Source: Egicoccus sp. AB-alg6-2 | Lineage (GTDB): Bacteria > Actinomycetota > Nitriliruptoria > Nitriliruptorales > Nitriliruptoraceae | Assembly (NCBI RefSeq): GCF_041821025.1 | Contig: NZ_JBGUAY010000004.1 | Location: 62,001 to 126,000 of the forward strand | Reading direction: 5' to 3' | Length of the DNA stretch: 64,000 bases | In this document: positions 16,569 to 19,363 of the stretch, piece after piece | How the letters are laid out: every line of letters begins with the position of its first letter | Position numbering within the stretch: position 1 is the first letter of the stretch | Notes under the pieces: model-generated | Database searches by the model: none | What the model was told of the DNA's origin: nothing | Seen by the model: the letters and a program-made list of their open reading frames with translations, nothing else | Made by a program: the position numbers and the translations under genes

Positions 16569-17780
16569 TCACACGGGCGCTTCGGAGGCAACTCGCGTGA
16601 CCAGTACTCGTCCCCCGTCGTCCGTTCTGACCAGTTCGATACGCCAACCGGCCGGCCCGCGCGGTGGCCGCCCCAGCGCGCGCCACCATGCGGGCGTGTC
16701 CAGCGGCAGGCCGTGGCTGGCGAACTCGACCGCGTCGACGTCCCGCGTCCGCAGCCACGTTCGGACCGGCTTCGGTCGTGGCGGCAGCACGGCATGGATC
16801 TCGCGGTGGTCGTACCAGGGGCTCGGCGTGGGGACGTCGTCCGCGGTCAGCAGTGCCCGTGTCTCGGCCACGCGGCGCGCACCGATCTCGGCGCCGATCT
16901 CGTCGTGAAGCCGGGCGCGGACGGCGGCCGGTGCGACCTCGATCAGCACGCCGCCGACCTCGCCGACCGGGCGGCGCAGGCGCGGTGCGTCCGTGTGCCG
17001 TGGGCGCGTGTGTCCGCCGGGGAGCAGCGTGGCACGGGCGGCGACCCCGGCGGTGCGCAGGGCGCCGGTCCATGCGACCGATTCCCGCAGCGTGCCGGCG
17101 AACTGCACGAACTCCAGTTCGGCGGCTGGAGGCAGCTCGGGATCATCGAGGTCGACCGCGGGCGAGAGCACGACCGCGAGTCCGCGCGACGAGGCGTGCC
17201 TCGCCACCAACGCGCCGACGGGTGGCAGGTGTTCGGCGAGTCGACGGATACGCCGACCGTCGGCGCGGCGGCGACCCGGGTCGGCATGGACGAGGGCACC
17301 GTCGGGGACCTCGACCGCGAGTGCATCGCCGGGCCGCGTCACCACGTCGAGGTCGAGCGCCCGGGCGTTGTGCTCGAGCAGTACCAGCCGCGCTTCGTCG
17401 AGGTCGACCGCCGTCACCGTCGCGCCGTTCTCAGCCGCCGCCAGCGCGTCACCTCCGAGACCGCTGCACAGGTCCCACACCGCCTGCCCGGCGAGTCGCC
17501 GTGTCCGCCATGCGCTGACCTCGGGATCGCTCGCCTGCTCGAGCCCTTCGCGGGTGAACAGCAACCGTTCCGCCTGTGGCCAACGGTCGCGGGCGCGTCG
17601 TCGTGCGCTGGCAGCGGCCACGACCGCTGCGGTCCGCGGCGCCGTCAGGCCCTGTCCGCGCAGCGCCGCCACCACCGCCACCTCGGTCGCGCCGGCGTCG
17701 AGTTCTGCCGTCGTCGACGCGACCAGTGCACGGCCGACGTCGACCAACCAGCGCGCCGTCCCGACATTCAGTTCTTCCAC
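16569..17780 (-). CDS. SAM-dependent methyltransferase with THUMP-like C-terminal domain
   Basis: A 403-residue class I methyltransferase. Motif I is VWDLCSGLGGDALAAA, motif II VTAVDLDEAR, and ALVHADPGRRRADGRR stands where the NPPY-type catalytic motif normally lies (DP.RR variant known in this actinobacterial family). The C-terminus (from about 330, REIHAVLPPRPKPVRTWLR) resembles the THUMP-like domain of this family. Probably modifies RNA, but the substrate is unproven. GTG/ATG choice near 17780 is fixed by MEELNVGTARW. Confidence 0.8.
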   Translation of the reverse strand: MEELNVGTARWLVDVGRALVASTTAELDAGATEVAVVAALRGQGLTAPRTAAVVAAASARRRARDRWPQAERLLFTREGLEQASDPEVSAWRTRRLAGQAVWDLCSGLGGDALAAAENGATVTAVDLDEARLVLLEHNARALDLDVVTRPGDALAVEVPDGALVHADPGRRRADGRRIRRLAEHLPPVGALVARHASSRGLAVVLSPAVDLDDPELPPAAELEFVQFAGTLRESVAWTGALRTAGVAARATLLPGGHTRPRHTDAPRLRRPVGEVGGVLIEVAPAAVRARLHDEIGAEIGARRVAETRALLTADDVPTPSPWYDHREIHAVLPPRPKPVRTWLRTRDVDAVEFASHGLPLDTPAWWRALGRPPRGPAGWRIELVRTDDGGRVLVTRVASEAPV

Positions 17781-17914
17781 GAAGCCGCGTTCCTGCTCGA
17801 TTGGCCGGCCAGATGGACCGAGACCGGTACTAGGAGGGTTGCACAGGTTTCTCTACAGTCTCCGCCGTGTACCGCCGTGGGGTGGTACGGCACCCGATGG
17901 GAGGCACGAACCCG

Positions 17915-18316
17915 ATGGCATCCGCCAAGAAGACCGCAGCCAAGAAGACGGCCGCCAAGTCGTCGGCCAAGAAGACCGCCGCGAAGAAGACCGCGGCCAC
18001 GTCGACGGCGAAGAAGACCGCAGCGAAGAAGACCGCGGCCACGTCGACGGGCAAGAAGACCGCCGCGAAGAAGACGGCCGCGAAGAAGACCGCGGCCAAG
18101 TCGTCGGCGAAGAAGACCGCAGCACGGGCGACGAGCACCGGCGGTGAGAACCTCATCGTCACCTCGAAGCTGCGTGAAGCGGTGCGGTCCCAGGACGTGC
18201 GCATGTCCTCGGATCTCGTCGAGGCCCTCAACGCCCACGTGCACGAGGTACTCACGCGCGCCGTCGCCCGGGCCAAGGGCAACGGTCGCGGCACGGTGCG
18301 CCCGAACGACCTGTAA
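17915..18316 (+). CDS. Histone-fold protein with lysine/alanine-repeat (H1-like) N-terminal tail
   Basis: A 133-residue predicted DNA-binding protein. Residues 1-72 are repeats of KKTAA broken by KSSA and TSTA/TSTG, with 22 lysines in 70 residues, like eukaryotic H1 tails or the tail of mycobacterial HupB. Residues 78-133 look like a single histone fold: IVTSKLREAVRSQDVRMSSD, a helix EALNAHVHEVLTRAVARA, and the ending GNGRGTVRPNDL, matching the R-x-S-x-D and GR-x-T-(I/V)-x-x-(D)-(I/L) signatures of archaeal and bacterial histones. No HU domain is present. ATG 17915 has GGGAGG upstream (an in-frame ATG 17897 overlaps it). Monocistronic: a strong terminator follows. Probably compacts the nucleoid. 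Confidence 0.75.
   Translation: MASAKKTAAKKTAAKSSAKKTAAKKTAATSTAKKTAAKKTAATSTGKKTAAKKTAAKKTAAKSSAKKTAARATSTGGENLIVTSKLREAVRSQDVRMSSDLVEALNAHVHEVLTRAVARAKGNGRGTVRPNDL
17924..18124 (+). repeat. Degenerate tandem repeat coding KKTAA units
   Basis: Short repeats of the type AAGAAGACCGC(A/G)GC within the histone-like gene, about twelve KKTAA-type units. They vary in third positions (AAG AAG ACC/ACG GCC/GCG/GCA), so selection on the protein is likelier than slippage alone. Confidence 0.85.
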
Positions 18317-18339
18317 CACCGGGCGAACCGCTCGACGCC

Positions 18340-18381
18340 AGGGGATGGCGTGCGACCCGCATCGGGTCCACGCCATCCCCT
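18340..18381 (+). terminator. Strong terminator after the histone-like gene
   Basis: A 13-bp perfect stem (AGGGGATGGCGTG and complement) with an inner GACCC/GGGTC stem, 24 nt after the TAA, followed by GTTCGTTGC. It isolates the histone-like gene from the PAC2 gene. Confidence 0.85.
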
Positions 18382-18463
18382 GTTCGTTGCGGGGAACCGC
18401 CCTGCGCGTGGGGGACGCAAGGTGGGGGCAGGGGGACGAGGGCGCGCCGCTACGTTTGGGCGC

Positions 18464-19363
18464 ATGGAACTCCTGCGACTCGACCCCGCCACCGACGACC
18501 TCGGGCCCGACCCCGTGCTGGTGCTCTCGTTCGACGGCTGGACCGACGCCGGTGAGGGCGGCACGGCGGCCGCGGATGCACTGCGCCAGGTCGCCGACCC
18601 GATCCGGATCGGTAGCTTCGACGGTGACGCGCTCTACGACTACCGCGACCGCCGCCCCCAGCTGAGCATCGACCGCGGGGTACTCGCGCAGCCCGTGTGG
18701 CCGGAGTTGACCGTCGAGGCGTTGCGTCCGTCCAGCGGTCCGGCGCTGATCCTGGTGACCGGCGCCGAACCCGACCTCGCCTGGCAGAAGCTCGGCCGTG
18801 ACCTGGTCGCGCTCGCCCGCCACTTCGGTGCCACCCGCTACGTCGGCCTGGGTGCGGTACCGGGCCCGATCCCCCACACCCGCCCCGTGCAGGTCCTGGC
18901 CACCTCCAACGACCTGCAGCTGCTCGAGCGCATGGGACGGCCCCACGAACCGCTGGTCGTGCCGTCGTCGTGCCAGTCGGCGATGGAGGCGCTGCTGGCG
19001 TCGGCCGGCATCACCACGCTCGGCCTGTGGGCACGCATCCCCCACTACATCGCCGGCGACTACCCCGACGGCGCCCGGGCGCTGCTCGAGCGCTTCACCG
19101 GCTACCTCGGCACACCGGTCGACCTGAGCCAGTTCGACGAGGCGGCCAGCGACAACCGTGCCAAGCTCGACCTGGCTGCCGCCTCCTCCGAGGAGGTCAC
19201 CGAGCACGTCCGCCAGCTCGAGCGCCTCTACGACGCCGAGGTCGAGGCCGAACGGCTCGCGGAGGGCGGCACCTCGGGCAGCGAACTGAGCGAGGTGCCG
19301 GTGCCCTCGGCGGACGAGCTGGCCGCGGAGATCGAGCGCTTCCTCAGCGGCCGGACGGAGTGA
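18464..19363 (+). CDS. PAC2 family protein (proteasome-assembly-chaperone-like)
   Basis: A 299-residue PAC2 (DUF75) protein. Family landmarks are VLVLSFDGWTDAGEGGTAA near 20, FDGDALYDYRDRRP with LILVTGAEPD, VGLGAVPGPIPHTRPV, and LWARIPHYIAG with YPDGARALLERF. PAC2 homologues assemble eukaryotic and archaeal proteasomes; actinobacterial members have no proven role but fit a proteasome-bearing genome. Its stop is 3 nt from the convergent dehydrogenase stop. Start ATG 18464 opens MELLRLDPA. Confidence 0.88.
   Translation: MELLRLDPATDDLGPDPVLVLSFDGWTDAGEGGTAAADALRQVADPIRIGSFDGDALYDYRDRRPQLSIDRGVLAQPVWPELTVEALRPSSGPALILVTGAEPDLAWQKLGRDLVALARHFGATRYVGLGAVPGPIPHTRPVQVLATSNDLQLLERMGRPHEPLVVPSSCQSAMEALLASAGITTLGLWARIPHYIAGDYPDGARALLERFTGYLGTPVDLSQFDEAASDNRAKLDLAAASSEEVTEHVRQLERLYDAEVEAERLAEGGTSGSELSEVPVPSADELAAEIERFLSGRTE

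Follow-up and report, generated by a model that had tools for sequence, protein, structure and literature searches.

Some 93% of bacterial genomes contain HU, and fewer than 2% a histone fold (PMC10627809). The closest described system is HLp of Leptospira perolatii (9qt0, 9qt1, 9qt2), a 63-residue protein whose tetramer wraps DNA (PMC12701072). In HLp, R49, N53, and R55 build the face-to-face (FtF) tetramer, and R55 and D62 form the "RD clamp" (PMC12701072). The histone of Leptospira interrogans is abundant, enriched in the nucleoid, and probably essential (PMC12701072, PMC10627809). HTkC of Thermococcus kodakarensis (9f2c) has the same fold and tetramer class, while HBb (Bd0055) of Bdellovibrio (8fvx, 8cmp, and 9ezz) shares the alpha3 histone fold but belongs to the bacterial-dimer class, lacking the FtF tetramer residues and any lysine tail. 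Alpha3 histones are recognized in the literature by a shortened alpha2, and positively charged N-terminal tails on bacterial FtF cores have already been described (Schwab et al. 2024, PMC11390915). The main text of that paper does not name Actinomycetota; the main texts searched mention no actinobacterial histones, supplementary tables may list some, and a literature search on Nitriliruptor and histone returned no relevant paper.

The window, a stretch of 64,000 nucleotides, contains a gene for a protein of this kind, the features of which are collected in Table 1. The translation begins MASAKKTAAKK and ends GNGRGTVRPNDL. The ATG start was supported by the GGGAGG site and by conservation of the start, MA-x-AKK, in relatives. 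All Lys codons are AAG, and the third-position G+C content of 91% is as expected for a resident of a 71% G+C genome. The first-pass annotation had counted 22 Lys among residues 1-70 and pointed to an R-x-S-S-D motif (here RMSSD) and to the C-terminal sequence, all of which were borne out by the translation and a recount. It had also assigned the gene to an actinobacterium, in agreement with the nearest named relatives, which belong to Nitriliruptoria, Actinomycetota.

Table 1. Features of the tailed histone gene and its surroundings (positions within the window)
Feature	Position	Strand	Basis
CDS of tailed FtF-type alpha3 histone, 133 aa (predicted)	17915..18316	+	ORF list and translation, GGGAGG site, conserved start
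Ribosome-binding site GGGAGG, 10 nt 5' of ATG	17899..17904	+	Sequence
N-terminal H1-like tail, residues 1-77	17915..18145	+	Composition; predicted to lack secondary structure
Histone fold, residues 78-133	18146..18313	+	Sequence search and predicted structure
Predicted helix alpha1, residues 83-92	18161..18190	+	Model, block pLDDT >90
Predicted helix alpha2, residues 101-122, shorter than in HMf	18215..18280	+	Model; PMC11390915
Truncated one-turn alpha3, residues 130-132	18302..18310	+	Model
Hairpin 3' of the histone gene, probable terminator, weak T-tract	18339..18382	+	Folding
Conserved upstream neighbor, methyltransferase with THUMP-like C-terminus (MTase)	16569..17780	-	Locus comparison
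Conserved downstream neighbor, PAC2 family protein	18464..19363	+	Locus comparison

The gene stands alone between the divergent methyltransferase gene and the PAC2 gene, in keeping with its earlier description as monocistronic. A strong terminator had also been proposed. The downstream hairpin has a 14-bp stem with an extra inner stem, and the region folds at -57 kcal/mol (z -6.5), but it is without a good U-tract and was not listed by a consensus terminator scan; a strong terminator at this position is therefore no more than plausible. A sigma-70 scan found no promoter, but such a scan is uninformative in this G+C-rich phylum.

To identify the C-terminal domain, the core was compared with solved histones by sequence and by predicted structure. 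With phmmer it matched HLp (9qt0, E 3.8e-6), HTkC (9f2c, 9.5e-5), and HBb (8fvx, 1.3e-3), and a family profile built from 14 relatives found HLp at E 1e-16. AlphaFold2 modeled the single chain with a confident histone fold (core pLDDT 91-95), consisting of a 10-residue alpha1, a 22-residue alpha2, and a one-turn alpha3, and gave the tail no secondary structure. The top Foldseek match of the core model was HLp (TM 0.94-0.95 by target), with an rmsd of 0.8 A over 56-57 residues. VIA-align likewise placed HLp first (Z 7.8-8.1), and in both comparisons HTkC and HBb ranked next, above the HMf-type histones (Z 5.2-5.4 in VIA-align). The core is about 36% identical to that of HLp and 32-34% identical to that of HTkC. 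HLp shares the fold, the short alpha2, the one-turn alpha3, the R-x3-N-x-R residues, and the RD clamp, but it has a short N-terminus in place of the 77-residue lysine-repeat tail; HTkC is archaeal and also tailless.

The residues R119, N123, R125, T127, D132, and L133 were invariant in an alignment of 33 sequences spanning Actinomycetota, Myxococcota, Planctomycetota, and archaea. R119, N123, and R125 correspond to R49, N53, and R55 of the HLp tetramer, and D132 to the partner of R55 in the R55-D62 clamp, so that the core carries the tetramer and RD-clamp residues as R-x3-N-x-R-x-T-x4-D. Because these residues are present and invariant, the core is predicted to belong to the alpha3 FtF histones rather than to the archaeal nucleosomal type, and a face-to-face homotetramer that binds or wraps DNA would be expected by analogy with HLp.

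The comparison with other histone classes pointed in the same direction. Alpha3 histones have an alpha3 of 3-4 residues and an alpha2 that falls short of the nucleosomal one by four to five residues, as seen in the model, and FtF histones add the dimer-dimer R and N and the RxTxxxxD motif, all of which are present. A full-length alpha2 and an alpha3 of about 10 residues, typical of nucleosomal HMf-type histones, are absent, the protein ending one turn into alpha3. Bacterial-dimer histones such as HBb lack the FtF R and N, whereas both residues occur here. The DUF1931 pseudodimers have two folds per chain (138 positions in Pfam PF09123), whereas this core is a single fold and its DUF1931 match (E 0.024 over 35 residues) fell below the cut-off, as did the NCBIfam archaea_histone match (E 0.0064). 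Pfam CBFD_NFYB_HMF gave no match. The earlier suggestion of a tailed bacterial histone was thus upheld by sequence search, predicted structure, and conservation, and its profile-search test was answered by the bacterial histones and not by CBFD_NFYB_HMF; the archaeal HMf-type signatures from which it had started gave way to the FtF alpha3 type. Its remark that the central helix appeared about four residues shorter than in HMfB was correct and describes the alpha3 hallmark (PMC11390915).

Of the 36 genomes sampled from the window's order, 32 carry the family, compared with 0 of 30 from other orders of Nitriliruptoria; the four histone-less genomes of the order were 61-88% complete. In a survey of the phylum by an even draw of 396 genomes, credible matches were confined to the window's order, a weak match in one further genome (G179, E 8e-4, profile positions 10-40 alone) having been set aside. 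Within Actinomycetota, the histone family is therefore specific to one order of the class Nitriliruptoria. The named relatives are metagenome-assembled genomes (MAGs) called Nitriliruptoraceae or Nitriliruptorales and the strain Salsipaludibacter albus AS10. Since the closest proteins outside the phylum are from Myxococcales, a Planctomycetia MAG, and DPANN archaea, the family probably entered the order by transfer. The tree of the 56-residue core was poorly resolved, with tailed and tailless copies parting roughly, the long branches of G020t and G035 wandering, and three archaeal rows falling inside the tailless group, and for this reason neither a donor nor an order of duplication is claimed. 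Separately, FtF-type relatives (L118 and L119) were found on two IMG/VR contigs filed as viral, 619 kb and 139 kb long, which may come from giant phages or be cellular DNA filed wrongly.

The distribution of HU (PF00216) was the reverse of that of the histones: it was found in 27 of 30 genomes of the other orders versus 0 of 36 in the histone-bearing order, one match on a foreign contig being set aside. That match (G024:C218, L094) lies on a contig of 43% G+C with unrelated content in a MAG of a high-G+C lineage and is most likely contamination. A class-specific HU profile, searched at E values up to 10 against 15 genomes of the order, gave a convincing match on the same contig alone. The search did recover actinobacterial IHF, in 57 of 66 genomes and in both groups, and this speaks against a technical failure as the cause of the missing HU. 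Lsr2 was found in none of the sampled genomes of the class and is hence uninformative. Fisher tests of the histone and HU tables gave p ~1e-15, but the genomes are related and the exchange was probably one evolutionary event, so the tables do not count as independent support for a function; the pattern is a clade-wide swap rather than a correlation seen repeatedly. In Myxococcota and Planctomycetota, carriers of FtF histones retain HU, so its loss is not forced by having a histone. On the gene content of the sampled genomes, histones probably replaced HU in this order of Nitriliruptoria, with actinobacterial IHF retained. Leptospira is a known parallel, being likewise without HU (PMC12701072).

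The window's genome also encodes a tailless histone of 58 residues (G000:C9, L002). In most of the order, this gene is flanked by the DNA-repair genes lhr and nei (L002, L019, L039, and others), and this placement hints at a tie of the tailless histone to DNA repair. The tailed gene was found upstream of the same PAC2 gene in 14/14 genomes read, including one from another family (G035), and adjoins the same methyltransferase in 13 of these, the contig ending first in the remaining one (G023). The tailed and tailless histones are two ancient paralogues at fixed addresses. Further variants were also observed. One genome (G006) has four histones (L010, L032, L038, and L040), one with an acidic and arginine-rich rather than lysine-rich N-terminus. 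In G035, a 125-residue ORF (G035:C15; L031, with L083) contains two tandem alpha3 folds, each with R-x3-N-x-R-x-T-V-R-P-x-D-L, and matches Pfam DUF1931 at E 2.8e-9; it is possibly an FtF-like doublet keeping DNA- and tetramer-related residues, the model being of low confidence (mean pLDDT 60.5).

Six genomes from two genera have, at the MTase-PAC2 locus, lysine-rich ORFs that consist of a tail with no histone fold (L097, L098, L099, L112, L117, and L116, in G011, G022, G014, G027, G029, and G033). They start MA-x-AKK and are 57-143 residues long in five genomes, the one in G033 lying near a contig end. In ten genomes the methyltransferase gene adjoins PAC2 with nothing lysine-rich between, in two the locus is rearranged, and in four it was unreadable. 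Among the 32 genomes with a readable locus, therefore, 12 are without the tailed gene and 6 have the tail without the fold. In a PAC2 tree rooted with the sister orders, the early branches carry the fused form, two clades that diverge later contain the tail-only forms, and G002, with its empty locus, is placed within the window's own genus. These placements favor an ancestral fusion of tail and fold, from which the fold or the entire gene was lost later, although the PAC2 tree is a gene tree with some weak forks in its backbone and the reverse order is also possible.

Since several relatives have lost it, the tailed copy is not essential across the order and looks accessory beside its near-universal tailless paralogue; the high level of production proposed in the first-pass annotation is conjectural. 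It is possible, though less likely than not, that the tailed protein is a specialized, minor DNA-binding factor, for example in repair or stress, and that the tailless paralogue is the architectural one. The missing or fold-less copies at 18 of the readable loci, the near-universal tailless gene, and the location of that gene among repair genes all speak for this, while against it the tailed gene seems to go back to the ancestor of the order and is kept in most of its deep lineages, and one genome (G006) has up to three extended copies.

The tail (residues 1-77) is composed largely of Ala (26), Lys (22), Thr (16), and Ser (8) and has a net charge of +23. Residues 3-72 matched NCBIfam hist_H1_lk_Burk at E 1.5e-8, with 35.1 bits against a cut-off of 80, and the tail matched Hc2 with 19.2 bits against a cut-off of 40, so that neither curated threshold was reached. 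The likeness to H1-like models is compositional, and repeat composition alone is no proof of kinship. Hc2, the Burkholderia H1-like proteins, AlgP, and the HupB tail share the lysine/alanine repeat chemistry but have no histone fold. Descent from HupB was considered and found no support, as the HU proteins examined from sister orders have no lysine tail. Low complexity arising by accident does not account for the tail, since it is kept in 14 genomes at one locus, another family of the order included. The combination of H1 and core-histone traits noted in the first-pass annotation is present, but it is not without precedent, given the charged-tail FtF histones of PMC11390915.

It is unlikely that the main target of the tail is not DNA but, for example, RNA or polyphosphate granules, with the fold merely oligomerizing it: tail-only proteins do persist at the locus in six genomes, and AlgP, which is H1-like, acts on polyphosphate granule spacing (PMC9239181), but relatives of the fused fold wrap or bend DNA (PMC12701072, PMC11317129). 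A low-complexity ORF that arose by chance and resembles histones spuriously, for which the frequency of lysine repeats in actinobacterial proteins and the unreached Pfam and NCBIfam cut-offs might be cited, is refuted by the similarity to solved bacterial histones in both sequence and fold, the conservation at a fixed locus, and the invariant functional residues.

The tailed protein is thus very probably a nucleoid FtF alpha3 histone with a long, disordered, lysine-rich N-terminal tail. By analogy with HLp, the 56-residue core would most likely dimerize through the histone handshake, and the dimers would most likely join face to face, forming a tetramer able to bend or wrap DNA. Like the H1 and HupB tails, the tail most likely makes electrostatic contacts with DNA beyond the core and may add affinity, bridging, or compaction. 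The net charge of the core (residues 78-133) is just +2, a point against a DNA-packaging reading. The tailed histone would work alongside the tailless paralogue of the lhr-histone-nei locus, and together the histones may hold in this order the architectural place that HU has in its sister orders. Because it is near-universal while the tailed copy was repeatedly lost, the basic role would fit the tailless histone better, and added compaction or bridging the tailed one.

The tailed architecture is a variant of the charged-tail bacterial FtF histones already described. Neither a family-wide, long tail of the KKTAA type nor a tail-only state at the same locus appears in the passages of Schwab et al. 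2024 consulted (PMC11390915), and as far as the search goes, a histone-bearing order without HU and a series of fused, tail-only, and empty states at one locus are undescribed. The clade includes at least one named strain (Salsipaludibacter albus); across the clade HU was not found and FtF histones are near-universal, with the reverse in the sister orders, which makes the replacement of HU by histones testable outside Leptospira. The tailed, tailless, and tail-only forms provide natural experiments on the function of histone tails. More tentatively, and as a serious possibility only, histones may have displaced HU as the main architects of the chromosome in a whole order of Actinomycetota, with a two-part chromatin made of a tailless FtF histone and a fusion of an FtF histone with an H1-like module that also occurs standalone. 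If true, bacteria would have arrived independently at a chromatin comparable to that built from core and linker histones.
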